NCBI GenBank assembly: GCA_902786855.1
Contig: CADAEH010000005.1
Coordinates: forward strand, 62,001 to 126,000
Direction of reading: 5' to 3'
Length of the DNA stretch: 64,000 bases
From: an uncultured Eubacteriales bacterium
GTDB lineage: Bacteria; Bacillota; Clostridia; Peptostreptococcales; Anaerovoracaceae
Shown: positions 8,760 through 14,824 of the stretch, piece after piece
Numbering within the stretch: position 1 is the stretch's first letter
Layout: the number at the start of each line of letters is the position of its first letter
Position numbers and translations under genes: made by a program
The notes under the pieces: model-generated
Database searches by the model: none
Told to the model about the DNA's origin: nothing
What the model saw: the letters and a program-made list of their open reading frames with translations, nothing else

Positions 8760-9205
8760 TGCGTATACTAGGGCTTGATGTAGGAGACAAAACAGTGGGG
8801 GTCGCAGTAAGCGACCCTCTTGGTATTATTGCGACCGGTGTAACTACCATTGAAAGGGTGGGTATCCGTAAAGATACCGGTAAAGTCATAGATTATATCA
8901 GAGAATATGACTGTCCGCTCGTGGTTATTGGATTGCCCCTCAATCTTGATGATACTGACTCTGTTCAGACAGAAAAGGTCAGAGCTTTCAGAGAAATGCT
9001 TGAAAATAAACTGAGAAGTTCCGGACCGCTCTCCAAGGTCAGGATCGAATGGCAGGATGAGAGATATTCAACTGCTGAGGCAGAGGAAGTTCTGATCGAT
9101 GCAAATATGAGTCGTGAAGACAGGAAAAAGATCATAGACCGACAGGCCGCAATAGTGATACTGCAGCGTTATCTTGACAGAATGCCCGCAGAGGACAAGA
9201 GATGA
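8759..9205 (+). CDS. ruvX: RuvX/YqgF RNase H-like nuclease
   Basis: This 148-residue protein has an RNase H fold, with LGLDVGDKTVGVAVSDP at the start, VVIGLPLNLD in the middle and WQDERYSTAEAE before the final acidic residue. Members are described as putative Holliday-junction resolvases and as nucleases in pre-16S rRNA 5' processing; the second role is better supported in E. coli. It is coupled to ireB upstream and overlaps the LysR start by four bases (ATGA). Confidence 0.93.
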   Translation: MRILGLDVGDKTVGVAVSDPLGIIATGVTTIERVGIRKDTGKVIDYIREYDCPLVVIGLPLNLDDTDSVQTEKVRAFREMLENKLRSSGPLSKVRIEWQDERYSTAEAEEVLIDANMSREDRKKIIDRQAAIVILQRYLDRMPAEDKR

Positions 9206-10113
9206 ATGACCTTCAGATAGATTATTTCATGGCCGTAGCGACCAATCTGAGCTTTACTAAGACATCAGAAGAGATGTTTGTATCTCAGCCTGCGATATCC
9301 AGACAGATATCTCAGCTGGAAAAAGAGCTTGGCGCAAGATTGTTCAAGCGCAACAATCAGAGAACTGAGCTTACAGAAGTAGGCAAGCTTTATTTTGATC
9401 TCTTCAGCAGATATAAAGCAGATCTGATCAATACTAAAATAGAGGCTGATCGTATACTGGGAAATAAAAAAGGAATAATACGGGTCGGATTTCTTGAAGG
9501 GTGGGATCTCTTCAATATAATTCCGAAGATGATTGAACGGTTCAATGCTGAGTATCCTGATACAGAGGTCGTGATAAACTGCTGTGGAGTAAAAGAACTG
9601 ACAACATCACTTCTGAATGATTCTCTTGATCTGATTGTGACAATGAACAATTCAGTAGCGATGTTCAGAGAGTTTGAATGCACGGAAGTCGCTGAGATCG
9701 GGAAAATATTGATTTATTCAGTATCTCATCCTCTTGCCGGAAAGAAAGAGCTTACTCTCAATGATTTTCGCGATGATGTCTTCATAGCACCTTGGGAAAT
9801 AGTTGACAAAATGGTAGTTGAGGCGATTACTTCATACACAAGACCTTATGGTTTTGTTCCAAGGCTCAGATTCGTAAAGAATCATGAATCGACTATTACA
9901 TGTGTCAGAAACAACATGGGGGTTGCAATAGTCGATGAATGGGTGTGGGCAAAAGACGCTGCAGACATAAAATGGATCCCTTTTAAAGCGATAGATATTG
10001 TATCCATTGCAAGGGCGAAAGCAAGAGAAACTGATCAGGAAATAAGGATGCAGCAGATACTCGCCGATATTATAGTGGAGCAGGAAGCAGAAAGAAGAAA
10101 AGAAAATAAATAG
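9202..10113 (+). CDS. LysR-type transcriptional regulator
   Basis: This is a 303-residue LTTR. The N-terminal winged helix-turn-helix (1-60) contains FTKTSEEMFVSQPAISRQIS, and a LysR substrate-binding domain (about 88-295) follows. The start codon overlaps the ruvX stop (ATGA), so expression may be tied to the alaS operon. The gene reads toward, and probably controls, the redox cluster at 10275-14753; this is inferred from adjacency and from the palindrome and dyad downstream. The effector is unknown. Confidence 0.93.
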   Translation: MNDLQIDYFMAVATNLSFTKTSEEMFVSQPAISRQISQLEKELGARLFKRNNQRTELTEVGKLYFDLFSRYKADLINTKIEADRILGNKKGIIRVGFLEGWDLFNIIPKMIERFNAEYPDTEVVINCCGVKELTTSLLNDSLDLIVTMNNSVAMFREFECTEVAEIGKILIYSVSHPLAGKKELTLNDFRDDVFIAPWEIVDKMVVEAITSYTRPYGFVPRLRFVKNHESTITCVRNNMGVAIVDEWVWAKDAADIKWIPFKAIDIVSIARAKARETDQEIRMQQILADIIVEQEAERRKENK

Positions 10114-10117
10114 AAGC

Positions 10118-10155
10118 TTGCTTCGTTCATAACAATATTGTTATGAACGAAGCAA
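10118..10155. repeat. 38-bp perfect palindrome after the LysR gene
   Basis: Two 19-base arms are perfectly complementary with no spacer; the centre is AACAATATTGTT. It starts four bases after the LysR stop. The plus strand lacks a T run after the right arm, so it is not a classic terminator. It may be an operator, an RNA-stabilising hairpin or a terminator without a U tract. Confidence 0.85.
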
Positions 10156-10172
10156 AATTAATCAATTATACA

Positions 10173-10222
10173 AAACAGGTTATCTGAGTTACAATGTAGT
10201 CAAGACAACCTGTTTGTTTTTT
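10173..10222 (+). terminator. Probable intrinsic terminator after the LysR gene
   Basis: AAACAGGTT (10173-10181) and AACCTGTTT (10207-10215) pair across a 25-base loop and are followed by G and a run of six T. The long loop makes it weaker than the others in this window. Confidence 0.65.
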
Positions 10223-10274
10223 AACGAAGTATAATATTAACAATAATAAAGTAGATATTGAAGGGAGAATAATC

Positions 10275-10775
10275 ATGCAGAAAAGCGCAAAATTGACAGC
10301 AGTGTACGCACTCATCATGGACCTGCCACTGAGCCTTGTTATCACTCTTGTTGCTCTGGCATTATCTAATATCGATGCACCGGGCAGCCTTAACGGACCT
10401 AATTATATAAGGATGGCGATCCTTGCTTATATCGTTACATTCTTCGTAAACTTCCTCCACGCTGAGAGGTGGGGATTCGCAGTTGCTGCAAAGCATTCTC
10501 AGCCTGGAACATTCAAGTTCGGACTTCTTCTGAATCTGGTAGTTGCTGCTGTATTCTGTGTCATTCTCGACCTGATCATGACAGCTGTAGGCATGATCGC
10601 AGGTGGAGCATTCAGTTTCGGACCATATATCGCAGCTGTTCTTAAAGGCTTCATTCCTTGCTATATCCCAACACTGATCATTGCAATGTTCTGGAATCAG
10701 TTTGCTGACAAGTGGTCGAGAGCGATCTGCAATGAGCCGGCACCACAGATGCCTGGAGCACCTGACCACAAGTAA
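10275..10775 (+). CDS. Four-helix membrane protein, possible tandem DUF2798-like repeat
   Basis: These 166 residues contain four hydrophobic segments (about 7-29, 43-62, 82-108, 117-142). The two halves look alike: each has a helix with an acidic residue (LIMDLPLSLVITLV and VILDLIMTAVGMI), then a helix ending in an aromatic/charged cap (FFVNFLHAERWG and AMFWNQFADKW). This pattern recalls the two-helix DUF2798 family duplicated in tandem; the family call is my inference. GAAGGGAGAATAATC precedes the ATG. A -10-like TATAAT lies at 10230-10235 without a clear -35. The cluster context suggests transport or membrane sensing of the cluster's substrate. Confidence 0.75.
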   Translation: MQKSAKLTAVYALIMDLPLSLVITLVALALSNIDAPGSLNGPNYIRMAILAYIVTFFVNFLHAERWGFAVAAKHSQPGTFKFGLLLNLVVAAVFCVILDLIMTAVGMIAGGAFSFGPYIAAVLKGFIPCYIPTLIIAMFWNQFADKWSRAICNEPAPQMPGAPDHK

Positions 10776-10811
10776 AAAACACGAATTCTTTAAATAAAAA
10801 TGGATTCATCT

Positions 10812-10863
10812 TGTTATAATCGAATCAACAGCAGTAAGTTATACCTAATAATTAAATAACTTA
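10812..10863 (+). promoter_or_regulatory. Extended -10 promoter and dyad before the flavoprotein gene
   Basis: TGT-TATAAT (10812-10820) is an extended -10 without a good -35. Just past the expected start, TAAGTTAT (10835-10842) and ATAACTTA (10856-10863) form an 8-base inverted repeat with a 13-base spacer. It could be an operator, and it shares the GTTAT/ATAAC core with the palindrome at 10118. Confidence 0.5.
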
Positions 10864-10893
10864 GTAGAAACATATTGCAGGAGGGAAAACAAT

Positions 10894-11871
10894 ATGAAGA
10901 TTCTGGGAATTTCTTTCGGAACCAAAAACGGTAACAATGACACTATGTGCAGATTAGCACTTGAAGAGTGCCAGAAGCTCGGAGCTGAGATCGAATTTAT
11001 CCATGCATTTGACTGGGATCTCCAGACATGTACAGGCTGCGTAGCATGCTCAAGAGGTCTCGTAATGGGCAAGGGCATGATCTGCACAAGAAAAGATGAC
11101 TTCAGTGCACTCTATGAAAAGATGGTAGAGGCAGACGGCGTATTCATCGTTGACCCTATCTATGAATCCGGCGGATCCGGACTCTTCCATATCTGCTGTG
11201 ATCGTATGGGACCTGGACATGACACAGGAATGCTCCTCGGACTGAACGAGAAGCTCAAAGAGCAGGGCAAGGAGCCTCTTGATATGAAGTACTTCAGACA
11301 GAAGGCTATCTCATTCCTCGCTATAGGCGGATCTGACTGGGCTGTAAGAACAGAGACTGATCACGCAATGCTCGCAATGAGTCCTGGCTGGAAGGTCGTC
11401 GACAATGATTACTTCTCATGGTGCAAGGACGTCATCATGCAGGATGACAAGATCGAGAGAACAAAAGAGATGGCAAGAAACCTCGTAGAGGCAGCTCAGT
11501 ACATCATCGATAACAATATCATGATCATGGGATCTGAGAACATTGACCTCTGGAAGGGCAAGAAGGGTGCATGCCCACACTGCCACGGCAATGCCTTCTA
11601 TATTTTCCCGGGAACAACAACTGCTGAATGCGAACTCTGCGGACTTCGCGGCGAGCTGGTAGTTGAAGACGGAGCTATGGTATTCAAGTTTGATCCTGCA
11701 ACAGAACATCATGCTCATGACATCCTGTCGGGCAAGGCTCTGCACGGACAGGACATCTTCCAGAATGAGGGAAGACTCATGAACCTCTTCAAGGACCCTG
11801 AATTCAAGGCACGCAAAGAGCATTACACCAACGTTATCGCTCCTACACCATCCCCATCCAAGAGCAAATAA
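10894..11871 (+). CDS. Flavodoxin-fold Fe-S-type flavoprotein with zinc-ribbon C-terminus
   Basis: This 325-residue protein of the NADPH-dependent FMN reductase/iron-sulfur flavoprotein superfamily starts MKILGISFGTKNGNN, a flavodoxin-type phosphate loop. Cysteines 46, 49, 52 and 64 (TCTGCVACS...MICTRKDDF) match the spacing that holds a 4Fe-4S cluster in Isf-type proteins, or the conserved cysteines of related FMN reductases. A second set, C227/C230 and C246/C249, forms a zinc-ribbon or rubredoxin-like module not found in simple FMN reductases. AGGAGGGAAAACAAT precedes the ATG. Isoleucine is written almost only as ATC or ATT, as in the ribosomal genes, suggesting high expression. The substrate is unknown. 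Confidence 0.82.
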   Translation: MKILGISFGTKNGNNDTMCRLALEECQKLGAEIEFIHAFDWDLQTCTGCVACSRGLVMGKGMICTRKDDFSALYEKMVEADGVFIVDPIYESGGSGLFHICCDRMGPGHDTGMLLGLNEKLKEQGKEPLDMKYFRQKAISFLAIGGSDWAVRTETDHAMLAMSPGWKVVDNDYFSWCKDVIMQDDKIERTKEMARNLVEAAQYIIDNNIMIMGSENIDLWKGKKGACPHCHGNAFYIFPGTTTAECELCGLRGELVVEDGAMVFKFDPATEHHAHDILSGKALHGQDIFQNEGRLMNLFKDPEFKARKEHYTNVIAPTPSPSKSK

Positions 11872-11888
11872 TATAGAATAGATAAACA

Positions 11889-11919
11889 CAGGCAGGGGAT
11901 AATACCCCTGCCTGCTTTT
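11889..11919 (+). terminator. Intrinsic terminator after the flavoprotein gene
   Basis: A 10-base-pair stem (CAGGCAGGGG / CCCCTGCCTG) with loop ATAATA is followed by CTTTT. It would limit transcription into the next gene. Confidence 0.85.
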
Positions 11920-11936
11920 ATACCAAAAGAAAGTAA

Positions 11937-11946
11937 CCCCCGGGGG
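11937..11946. repeat. GC palindrome before the EthD-like gene
   Basis: CCCCCGGGGG, flanked by AAAGTAA on the left and ACTTT on the right, lies between the terminator and the ribosome site of the next gene. In this AT-rich region it is conspicuous. It could be an operator or a hairpin shielding the 5' end of the downstream mRNA. Confidence 0.6.
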
Positions 11947-11973
11947 ACTTTAAAATGAAAGGAGAAGCATTCA

Positions 11974-12849
11974 ATGAACAGACCTGAATTTTATCCTGTA
12001 AGAAGCATTATCCTTGTAGACCTTGCTCATGAGGACTACAGGATCAAGCTCGAAAACTGGCTCTACAGATATCATGTGCCAGACAGCATTTCACAGTTTG
12101 GCCCATATGTAAGCAAGTATGCTTTCTATCCAGCACTTCCGACACCTCCTGGCGGAGCAAGATTCGGAACAGTAAGGATGCAGATGACAGAGCACTACTG
12201 GCTTGCTAACCCTAACGATATCGGCTTTGCAAAAGACCATCACAAGGTGCTTACTGAGTATTTCCCTACAGACGTACTTGTATGGCAGAACAACATTCCT
12301 GATATGGGGCATTCACATGGTATAGACAAGTCCGAAGAAGTCAATCTTGAAGGCGATGACGCAAGAGCTACCAAGGGTGACGAAGCCGCAGGAACAGTTC
12401 CTTTCATCTTTGCATTCGTACCTGTATGGTGGGAAGAGGACTTCAAGGGAGAAGGCCGCACTGTTGAAGACGGTCCTAACTACAGGTGGATGTTCATGGT
12501 CAAGTATCCGGAAGGCGTCAGTGCTGAAGAAGGTGACAAGTGGCTCAAGGAAGAATTCATTCCTGCATGGACTGCACACGAAGGCTGCACACGCTGTGTA
12601 TCAAGCAAGATCAAGAAAGAAGTCAACAACTGTGACTTCGACCGCATTGTGGAGATGTGGTTCGAGTGCCAGAGTGCATGGGTAGATGCAGCAGCTGCAG
12701 CAGCAGAGAAGTGCGCTAAGCCTGCATGGGCTGAGACTGAAGATTTCCCTTATCTCAAGAAGTCATACGGCATCAGCGGCATCTTCCTGTCAGACTATGC
12801 AAGATCAGATAATCTGACACAGTACCGTGGATACATTACGATGAGATAG
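11974..12849 (+). CDS. EthD-like protein with two alpha/beta-barrel repeats
   Basis: These 291 residues have no signal peptide. Two segments look like ferredoxin-like dimeric alpha/beta-barrel domains of the EthD type: about 10-105 (SIILVDLAHEDYRIKLENWL) and about 170-285 (YRWMFMVKYPEGVSAEEGDK). Small barrels of this class act as oxygenase helpers, isomerases or dehydratases on hydrophobic or aromatic ligands. Histidines cluster at 74, 89, 90, 113 and 115. The family call is inferred from pattern, not from a search. AAAGGAGAAGCATTCA precedes the ATG. The next gene begins two bases after the stop, so they are an operon. Codon use is strongly biased, as for highly expressed genes. Confidence 0.6.
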   Translation: MNRPEFYPVRSIILVDLAHEDYRIKLENWLYRYHVPDSISQFGPYVSKYAFYPALPTPPGGARFGTVRMQMTEHYWLANPNDIGFAKDHHKVLTEYFPTDVLVWQNNIPDMGHSHGIDKSEEVNLEGDDARATKGDEAAGTVPFIFAFVPVWWEEDFKGEGRTVEDGPNYRWMFMVKYPEGVSAEEGDKWLKEEFIPAWTAHEGCTRCVSSKIKKEVNNCDFDRIVEMWFECQSAWVDAAAAAAEKCAKPAWAETEDFPYLKKSYGISGIFLSDYARSDNLTQYRGYITMR

Positions 12850-12851
12850 CA

Positions 12852-13337
12852 ATGAGCAGAAAAGAAATACTGACACTTGCTTTACTTATTGCGGTCATGC
12901 CGCCTGCCTGGGCTGTGATCAGTCCATATCTTGGCAATACGGTCGGTCCCGTTGCCCTTATAACAGCAGGTATTTACGGAGCTAACGGCAATAAATGGGA
13001 AGATGCTCACAAGATGGCTCTTGGCTTTCTTGCCGGAGATATCTGGGCATATGCAGTTACGGTGATAATGTCCGTAACACCGTTTAATGCCGATCTGACG
13101 CTGTTTGCAGTTCTGGCAGTATTTGGCTTCCTTGCAGTAGTTATATCGCAGAGTCTGCCATCGTTTTTCAATATGCCTGCATGGCTTGCCGGATGGGCTA
13201 TCGGCATGCTGGCTATGAATCTTGATAAAGTGACTCCGCTAATGAGCCTGACGGCACAGATCGGAGCAGCTATGCTCGTCGGCGTATACTATGTAGGAGC
13301 TTTGATAGATAAGATCCATCATATAATTAACAAGTAA
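12852..13337 (+). CDS. DUF1097-like six-helix membrane protein
   Basis: This 161-residue very hydrophobic protein has about six transmembrane segments (6-24, 30-46, 54-76, 81-100, 108-125, 133-155). The pattern PPAWAVISPYLG near the start and PAWLAGWAIGMLAMNLDKV in the fifth segment resembles the DUF1097 family (E. coli YcdZ-like), whose function is unknown. The start is two bases after the EthD-like stop, with no room for its own promoter, so it is co-translated. In context it is a candidate uptake or efflux component for the compound handled by the neighbouring soluble proteins. Confidence 0.72.
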   Translation: MSRKEILTLALLIAVMPPAWAVISPYLGNTVGPVALITAGIYGANGNKWEDAHKMALGFLAGDIWAYAVTVIMSVTPFNADLTLFAVLAVFGFLAVVISQSLPSFFNMPAWLAGWAIGMLAMNLDKVTPLMSLTAQIGAAMLVGVYYVGALIDKIHHIINK

Positions 13338-13361
13338 GAAACTGTTCATAAGGAGGAATTT

Positions 13362-14753
13362 ATGGGCAAAGGCAAATATTTCTATTCAAAGGGTGAGGGA
13401 AATGACGGATATATAAAGAATCTTGAAGTTCTCTCATACTGCGACATGGACGGCACATGCGGAATGTTCCAGATGGCCCTCTACAGGACGGAATCGGGAA
13501 GATATCTGCTGTATGGTGCATGTTTTGCGGCAGGTCCTGATGGAGTAGGTATCATGATCAGTGATGTAACTGATCCAAGAAATCCTGTATTCATTAAAAA
13601 ATGGCTGCCGTTCGATATTGACGAGTATCCTACAACTTCTATACCTAAACTGCAGATAGCAGATGACAAGCTCATCTTTGCTCTCACTTCAGGTTCAGGA
13701 CCTAGTGTTCTGGTAGGAGACCGCGCTAAGATGAAGAGCCTTCAGGGCATCATGATCTATGATCTTAAGAAGGATCCTGAAAACCCTGAATACCTCGGAT
13801 ACTGGGACTGCGGAGTTCCGTATTCGATGGGAGTGCACAGATTCATGTATAACGGCGGTGACTATGTACATCTCTCATCAGAAGCAGATGAATTCGAAGG
13901 TCTGATCTACAGGATCGTCAGCATTGCTGATCCGGCCAACCCTGTCGAAGTGGGCCGCTGGTGGGCGCCTCATCAGTATATCTACGGAGTACCTGGCCGC
14001 GAGGTCGATCACTCAGCACCGCATAATCCTGACTTTATGGATAAAGGCTGGCTGCACGGGCCTCCGTTCGTTGTGGGAGACAAAGTATACTGCGGTTACT
14101 GCGGTGACGGTCTTTATGTTCTGGATATTTCCGATATCAGACATCCTAAGGCTCTCGGTAATCTGAAATTCATGCCTGCATTCTCAAGCAGACTTGCAGG
14201 AGCAAGGACTCATACAGCGCTTCCGCTGGTTGGAAGAGACCTCGTTGTTGTAACCAATGAAGGAGAGAGATTCGGATTTATAAAGGACGGTGTCGTAAAG
14301 CAGGCACAGGCTATGAACAATCTGCACATGGTCGATGTAAGCGATCCGACTAATCCGGTCCTCATAGCAGAATTCCCGTATCCGGAAGTTCCGGAGGATT
14401 TCCCTGCACCTAACTTCAACACTTACATGCTTGCAGAAGGTTCAAAGGGCGGACCGTTCGGACCTCACAATGTTCATGAACCAATGAGCAACAAGCCATG
14501 GCTCGAACAGAGGACCGATGTTGTTTATGATTGCTACTTTGCAGCAGGACTCAGAGTCTATGATGTATCAGATCCTTTCTACATCAAGGAAAAGGCATAT
14601 TTCATACCTCCGAATCCGACGAAGAAATGCTTCCCGTTCCCTGGTCCTATGATGGCCATGACGGAAGATGTCGTAGTAGACGACAGAGGTAACATCATTA
14701 TCGATGCTAACAGCGACGGATTCTATATTCTGAGAAAGACATACGAAGACTGA
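13362..14753 (+). CDS. LVIVD-repeat beta-propeller protein, candidate metalloprotein
   Basis: This 463-residue cytoplasmic-looking protein has no signal peptide. Six blade signatures of the LVIVD type are visible: SDVTDPRNPV (67-76), YDLKKDPENPEYLG (133-146), IADPANPVEVG (188-198), LDISDIRHPKALG (254-266), VDVSDPTNPVLIA (324-336) and YDVSDPFYIKEKA (400-412). Unusually many histidines sit in conserved-looking loops: H159, H170, H204, H217, H221, H232, H284, H369 and H372 (GPHNVHEP). This recalls metal-binding propellers such as selenium-binding protein/methanethiol oxidase, though homology is not shown. AAGGAGGAATTT precedes the ATG. It is last in the operon with the EthD-like and DUF1097-like genes and ends at a strong terminator. 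Confidence 0.75.
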   Translation: MGKGKYFYSKGEGNDGYIKNLEVLSYCDMDGTCGMFQMALYRTESGRYLLYGACFAAGPDGVGIMISDVTDPRNPVFIKKWLPFDIDEYPTTSIPKLQIADDKLIFALTSGSGPSVLVGDRAKMKSLQGIMIYDLKKDPENPEYLGYWDCGVPYSMGVHRFMYNGGDYVHLSSEADEFEGLIYRIVSIADPANPVEVGRWWAPHQYIYGVPGREVDHSAPHNPDFMDKGWLHGPPFVVGDKVYCGYCGDGLYVLDISDIRHPKALGNLKFMPAFSSRLAGARTHTALPLVGRDLVVVTNEGERFGFIKDGVVKQAQAMNNLHMVDVSDPTNPVLIAEFPYPEVPEDFPAPNFNTYMLAEGSKGGPFGPHNVHEPMSNKPWLEQRTDVVYDCYFAAGLRVYDVSDPFYIKEKAYFIPPNPTKKCFPFPGPMMAMTEDVVVDDRGNIIIDANSDGFYILRKTYED

Positions 14754-14790: not shown

Positions 14791-14824
14791 ATGCGGCAGC
14801 TTTCAGGCATGCCGCATTCTTTTT
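14791..14824 (+). terminator. Intrinsic terminator of the redox cluster
   Basis: ATGCGGCA (14791-14798) pairs with TGCCGCAT (14810-14817) across an 11-base loop, followed by TCTTTTT. It marks the end of the accessory cluster. Confidence 0.85.

Follow-up and report, generated by a model that had tools for sequence, protein, structure and literature searches.

Six genes at positions 9202..14753 of a 64,000-nucleotide stretch of DNA from an uncultured Eubacteriales bacterium (hereafter the window) very probably constitute a flavonoid-degradation locus, as the products of two of them, a flavone reductase (FLR) homologue and a chalcone isomerase (CHI) homologue, are relatives of gut-bacterial flavonoid enzymes. 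Beyond this assignment, we lean slightly towards a more specific reading, in which a LysR-regulated cluster would break down flavonols or flavanonols anaerobically by a ring-contraction (auronol) route, with a propeller protein of the LVIVD family as the cleaving enzyme. At present the LVIVD protein is the strongest candidate for the hydrolase, so far missing, that would split the auronol alphitonin after CHI, a proposal for which we regard the case as evenly balanced. FLR and CHI are enzymes of known kinds; what is new is the LVIVD protein as a testable candidate for the missing step.

Flavone reductase and chalcone isomerase homologues

Open reading frames were called in the window and their products compared with Pfam; statements attributed to published work follow extracts of the cited papers. 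All six reading frames that the initial annotation had placed at this locus were recovered, and its LysR, flavoprotein, DUF1097 and LVIVD labels correspond to the Pfam families LysR, FMN_red, DUF1097 and LVIVD. The three genes central to the argument are:

10894..11871, + strand: flavone reductase (FLR) homologue (PDB 7d38, E 1.7e-77; Pfam FMN_red)
11974..12849, + strand: bacterial chalcone isomerase (CHI) homologue (Pfam Chalcone_N, E 6.8e-49; PDB 4d06, E 1.2e-91)
13362..14753, + strand: LVIVD seven-bladed propeller, candidate auronol-cleaving hydrolase (Pfam LVIVD, 35.6 bits, cut-off 20.2)

Judged by its sequence, the flavoprotein is a flavone reductase homologue of the same family as the enzyme of Flavonifractor plautii (KGF53654; PDB 7D38-7D3B; PMC7862272). 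Its residues 1-318 align with residues 1-305 of 7d38 over the full length, comprising the flavodoxin-like domain and the C-terminal tail, with 130 of 305 aligned residues (43%) identical. Mutants of the F. plautii enzyme at G106, W149, H271 and I275 showed significantly reduced or eliminated activity (PMC7862272), and the equivalents of all four residues are identical in the window protein, which differs at the FMN contacts Met10, Ser14, Lys92 and Val144 and at the tail/interface residues Trp72 and Lys282. The two cysteine clusters noted initially are indeed present (C46/C49/C52/C64 and C227/C230/C246/C249), and the alignment with 7d38 places both in the F. plautii enzyme as well. The first cluster falls mostly within residues 48-67, a stretch disordered in the F. 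plautii crystal (PMC7862272), while the second forms a ribbon-like CxxC pair. The authors of the structural work described the electron transfer chain as still to be explored (PMC7862272); the first cysteine cluster could bind an iron-sulfur cluster and thereby provide the missing electron entry of FLR.

The next gene, previously described as encoding a two-repeat EthD-like protein, specifies a homologue of bacterial chalcone isomerases, with Chalcone_N scoring 164.9 bits against a cut-off of 25. An EthD assignment was considered and rejected, as Pfam returned only Chalcone_N and a sub-threshold DUF4286 at E values up to 1. Residues 5-291 cover residues 5-283 of the Eubacterium ramulus enzyme (PDB 4D06, 3ZPH, 8B7U) in a full two-domain match, with 136 of 279 aligned residues (49%) identical. 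The catalytic His33 with Asp36 and the site residues His73, Glu91 and Gln101 (PMC9694015) are all identical in the window protein after correction for a one-residue chain offset. The lid region differs from that of the E. ramulus enzyme by insertions and by a lysine in place of Arg125, and Asp79 is aligned with a proline. CHI converts flavanonols to auronols, for example taxifolin to alphitonin (PMC9694015). As FLR and CHI are both relatives of characterised flavonoid enzymes with solved structures (PMC7862272, PMC9694015), the initial view that the gene combination resembles no described pathway did not hold; the accompanying idea of a LysR-controlled system acting on aromatic compounds was a good guess with respect to reductive processing.

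Association of the LVIVD propeller with chalcone isomerase

The grouping of FLR, CHI and LVIVD is not due to chance, as the three genes are found together again in relatives and in distant genera. Among 77 named CHI loci, comprising 30 genus-like loci and 47 from outside the window genus, FLR (at least 150 bits) is found in 61 and LVIVD in 56; 52 of these loci have flanks of 4 kb or more in both directions, and they hold FLR in 44 cases, LVIVD in 42 and both in 41. The initial annotation had proposed a search for co-occurrence, and the outcome is positive. In a sample of 394 genomes of the order (LVIVD counted at E 1e-10 or better, FLR at 120 bits or more), CHI is present in 42 genomes and LVIVD in 40, 39 of which also have CHI; all 39 contain FLR, and in 35 of them CHI and LVIVD lie within 10 kb of each other. 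Both genes are present, not within 10 kb, in G060, G110, G133 and G305. CHI occurs without LVIVD in G009, G126 and G130, its sequence being distant in the latter two, and the only genome with LVIVD alone is G335, in whose assembly of some 270 contigs the gene is truncated by a contig start. Copy numbers agree as well: G166 and G286, and no other genomes of the sample, have CHI in duplicate, and these two alone carry LVIVD in duplicate. At genome level the association has a Fisher p of 4e-49, a value that relatedness inflates. Of 158 genera, 11 have CHI, and these include all eight that have LVIVD (p 2e-11).

The association extends further. In a class-wide sample of 351 genomes, LVIVD was found in three and CHI in five, all three LVIVD genomes being CHI-positive; two of the three overlap the order sample, and G542 alone is new. 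For 32 of these 47 non-genus CHI loci the source genomes, some of which also belong to the order sample, were searched; 31 contain LVIVD (two as fragments), Alkalibacter mobilis being the one without. The LVIVD gene of the window escaped a six-frame whole-genome search with the short Pfam model; the score of 35.6 bits comes from a protein search. In G110, CHI, FLR and LVIVD lie at three separate places (L188, L189, L190), and the CHI copy retains LysR, the membrane protein and DUF1097. A Clostridioides difficile plasmid (L194; NZ_CP149720.1 53826-75187) carries LysR, an LVIVD homologue with 66% identity and DUF1097, together with an oxidoreductase gene at the position expected for FLR and a hypothetical protein of CHI length, with no flavonoid annotation.

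An AlphaFold2 model of the LVIVD protein (predicted local distance difference test score 83.9) shows a seven-bladed propeller. Four histidines, H159, H232, H284 and H369, are invariant in all 23 sequences compared, the lowest identity being 39%. They lie on four successive blades (3-6), each at the first strand or immediately ahead of it; three of the four are kept in proteobacterial homologues at 31-36% identity. The best Foldseek match of the model is 5hrm (E 2.3e-16, against 3.4e-9 for the next entry), the phosphotriesterase of Sphingobium sp. TCM1 (PDB 5HRM, 5IOJ), and the sole clear profile match is likewise a propeller hydrolase. The TCM1 enzyme has a two-metal site. The likeness to this nearest solved relative is one of fold and weak profile similarity only, at 16-19% identity, and a different substrate class is expected. 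Distant homologues with three or four of the histidines are encoded on plasmids of Sinorhizobium, Rahnella, Caballeronia and Shinella (L195-L198) in unrelated neighbourhoods, and probably represent a wider uncharacterised enzyme family.

Proposed auronol cleavage and its alternatives

From these observations we infer the substrate, the LVIVD reaction and its metal, transport and regulation. FLR would reduce the C2-C3 double bond of a flavonol, turning quercetin into taxifolin, and CHI would isomerise the flavanonol to an auronol, here alphitonin, via an open 1,2-diketone tautomer. At a metal site held by the histidines of blades 3-6, the LVIVD protein would then release the phloroglucinol ring by hydrolysing its bond to the acyl carbon, yielding phloroglucinol and an arylpyruvate. 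A 2-oxoacid:ferredoxin oxidoreductase, a phosphotransacylase and a kinase, presumably unlinked in the window genome, would convert the arylpyruvate to arylacetate with formation of ATP, while the membrane proteins may serve entry or exit. A 2025 paper still described the alphitonin-cleaving enzyme as unknown (PMC12203004), and 3,4-dihydroxyphenylpyruvic acid has been considered a hypothetical intermediate (PMC11170127). Our literature search found no described role for the LVIVD protein or the membrane proteins and no described link to an arylpyruvate-to-arylacetate module.

Such a module does accompany CHI elsewhere. In 10 of the 47 non-genus CHI loci, the alpha subunit of a 2-oxoacid:ferredoxin oxidoreductase, a phosphate butyryltransferase-type enzyme (Ptb) and butyrate kinase (Buk) are encoded on one stretch, which in nine cases also holds LVIVD; eight CHI loci have an oxidoreductase of the VorB/KorA kind instead. 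These are the activities that an arylpyruvate product would need, namely oxidative decarboxylation to arylacetyl-CoA followed by formation of arylacetate and ATP. The clearest cases are L071, which comprises CHI, LVIVD, IorA, IorB, Ptb and Buk without FLR, and two Leptolinea-labelled metagenome-assembled genomes (MAGs; L073, L076), which have FLR, CHI, the membrane protein, LVIVD, IorA, IorB, Ptb and Buk in a row. The Leptolinea (Chloroflexota) label would imply either cross-phylum transfer or misbinning.

The strongest hint to the LVIVD reaction comes from loci that lack the gene. In two genomes that have a closely related CHI and no LVIVD, G009 (L192) and A. mobilis (L068/L193), a 206-residue phloretin-hydrolase-like protein (L192:5068-5688) is encoded near CHI; against the DAPG/phloretin hydrolase family, which cleaves acyl-phloroglucinols, it scores 22.6 bits in L192 (cut-off 22.7; E 8.6e-5) and 18.6 bits in L193. 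Both loci also hold FLR, IorAB, Ptb and Buk, and the L192 proteins exceed NCBIfam cut-offs for indolepyruvate:ferredoxin oxidoreductase alpha and beta and for butyrate kinase, the transferase passing a broader model only. On the short contig L075, too, a phloretin-hydrolase-like protein adjoins CHI.

Several observations weigh against LVIVD as the auronol-cleaving enzyme. In Clostridium puniceum (L180), LVIVD adjoins a phloretin-hydrolase-like protein, so that the two are not strict alternatives, and of 28 LVIVD genomes examined beyond the order, 13 have phloretin hydrolase as well. A search with PF18089, for which F. plautii served as a matching positive control, detected no phloretin hydrolase, the C-C hydrolase of the flavanone branch, in the window genome (G000, 87% complete) or in the 40 LVIVD genomes of the order. 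This result favours LVIVD, but the search is blind to the phloretin-hydrolase-like protein, as G009 has one and gave no match; absence of that protein from LVIVD genomes, the window's included, is therefore not shown. Among the 30 CHI loci of the window genus, several of them on short stretches, Ptb and Buk occur in none and the oxidoreductase in one. Catenibacillus decagia degrades alphitonin, and the extracted text names CHI for C. picagaria only (PMC11170127). When Yang et al. produced 14 proteins that STRING links to chi and phy, FLR alone altered apigenin (PMC7862272); the text does not specify LVIVD as one of the 14, and apigenin is not the substrate proposed for the LVIVD cluster. Finally, distant LVIVD homologues retain most of the histidines in unrelated proteobacterial neighbourhoods, so that the fold serves other substrates too.

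These points bear on three other explanations. The flavonoid cluster may be real with cleavage after CHI carried out by an unlinked hydrolase, phloretin-hydrolase-like or other, and with the LVIVD protein performing another step; it might, for example, open the auronol or tautomerise it, act on a lactone, or cleave some related polyphenol. The C. puniceum arrangement looks as if both proteins were needed, the chemistry of the phloretin hydrolase family is right for acyl-phloroglucinols, gene distribution cannot separate consecutive steps, and the search for an L192-type protein covered the CHI loci rather than whole LVIVD genomes. We nevertheless consider this explanation unlikely, as L071 (apart from its missing FLR), L073 and L076 have LVIVD and the other genes with no such protein on the stretch, whereas the complete-looking clusters without LVIVD (L068/L193, L192) do carry one. 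That the LVIVD protein is not an enzyme at all, and instead binds hydrophobic flavonoids or acts as a scaffold or sensor for them, seems highly improbable: many propellers are binding platforms and the top VIA-align rows are mostly WD40 proteins, but the invariant histidines on consecutive blades, largely kept even in the proteobacterial homologues, and the margin by which a hydrolase leads the Foldseek matches speak for catalysis.

A flavanone branch, in which FLR yields flavanones, CHI interconverts flavanone and chalcone, an unlinked Fcr-type reductase forms the dihydrochalcone and LVIVD replaces phloretin hydrolase, is improbable as well. CHI accepts flavanones too (PMC9694015), phloretin hydrolase was not found in the window genome with PF18089, and one of the five OYE-family proteins of that genome, none of them in the cluster and all matched at family level, could be Fcr. 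Flavanone cleavage, however, needs no CHI. The operon-like FLR-Fcr-Phy arrangement of Clostridium butyricum resembles the window locus in starting with FLR and in serving anaerobic flavonoid breakdown, but there taxifolin is opened reductively and phloretin hydrolase follows, with no CHI found in the genome according to the extracted text (PMC11868195); the window locus carries CHI and LVIVD in their place. Moreover, LVIVD tracks CHI rather than FLR, as two genomes of the order (G203, G387) have an FLR homologue (at least 120 bits) and neither CHI nor LVIVD, and the linked 2-oxoacid oxidoreductases fit an arylpyruvate, not an arylpropionate.

Returning to the auronol route, we tentatively suggest, with doubt slightly outweighing confidence, that the LVIVD protein founds a group of metal-dependent propeller C-C hydrolases splitting auronols to phloroglucinol and arylpyruvate; that together with FLR, CHI, an indolepyruvate-type 2-oxoacid oxidoreductase, Ptb and Buk it may form a complete ATP-yielding anaerobic flavonol pathway; that the phloretin-hydrolase-like protein displaces it in some lineages; and that the FLR/CHI/LVIVD core is distributed over Clostridia, Agrilactobacillus, an Enterococcaceae MAG and MAGs labelled Chloroflexota.

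Locus architecture and regulation

The remaining features of the locus are:

9202..10113, + strand: LysR-type regulator (Pfam HTH_1 5e-20, LysR_substrate 4.6e-17)
10129..10144, no strand: candidate operator, core ATAAC-N6-GTTAT, within a longer palindrome at 10118-10155
10275..10775, + strand: four-helix membrane protein (no Pfam family over cut-off)
11889..11914, no strand: terminator-like hairpin in the FLR/CHI gap (hairpin scan)
12852..13337, + strand: DUF1097 membrane protein (Pfam 63.1 bits, cut-off 24.6)
14791..14824, + strand: likely intrinsic terminator closing the locus, stem ATGCGGCA / TGCCGCAT, then TCTTTTT (read from sequence)

Nearly the same set of genes is found in F. plautii ATCC 29863 (L072), where LysR, FLR, CHI, a four-helix membrane protein and LVIVD are encoded next to one another. 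There, LysR is divergent from FLR, whereas the window LysR is not, and the gene order differs; the window has the DUF1097 gene in addition. The F. plautii membrane protein, encoded between CHI and LVIVD, is weakly similar to the window protein (pairwise E 2e-5), which is possibly involved in flavonoid passage. DUF1097 accompanies CHI in 24 of the 30 genus-like loci and in six of the 47 others.

The six genes had been taken for one unit with clear borders. They do form one conserved locus, and a hairpin with a T-run follows LVIVD; its 11-base loop exceeds the limits of the hairpin scan, hence its absence from the scan list. The upstream border is not clean, as the stop end of ruvX is shared with lysR in a four-base overlap (9202-9205), and a single transcript is not proven, since there are further hairpins in the gap from lysR to the membrane gene and in that separating FLR from CHI (seven terminator-like sites found by the scan, against 3.4 in shuffles). 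ruvX precedes the locus in 21 of the 30 genus-like cases, which indicates that the locus is fixed in most of the genus; it is absent from L048, L050 and L058 despite long upstream flanks.

A related LysR gene (above 60 bits) is present in 24 of the 30 genus-like loci. In all 22 aligned gaps between lysR and the membrane gene, from the window and 21 of these loci, the ATAAC-N6-GTTAT core is invariant, and its match in the window is the only one in 64 kb (0.03 expected). Its flanks are far less conserved, except for an ATTATAC-like element downstream. The palindrome is a plausible candidate for the LysR operator. In the window it extends, directly after lysR, to a perfect long palindrome (10118-10155; fold z -11.6), of which relatives keep the core and not the outer arms; given this lack of conservation, it may double as a hairpin in the window.

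The window genome, a 2.9-Mb assembly, has one CHI, whose named relatives at 96-99% identity come from Mogibacterium sp. MAGs of goat and sheep gut and from Clostridiales RUG and SIG isolates, RUG presumably denoting rumen. Such genes go unrecognised, as in the Clostridioides plasmid record, where they appear as DUF1097, an oxidoreductase and hypothetical proteins. Alphitonin can be an intermediate when bacteria degrade quercetin and catechin, and the cluster offers a specific, expressible candidate for its cleavage, with conserved candidate metal ligands. If the proposal is true, the product would be an arylpyruvate and not directly an arylacetate, which suggests how the cells may gain ATP. 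The locus further indicates flavonoid degradation in a genus of ruminant-gut bacteria.

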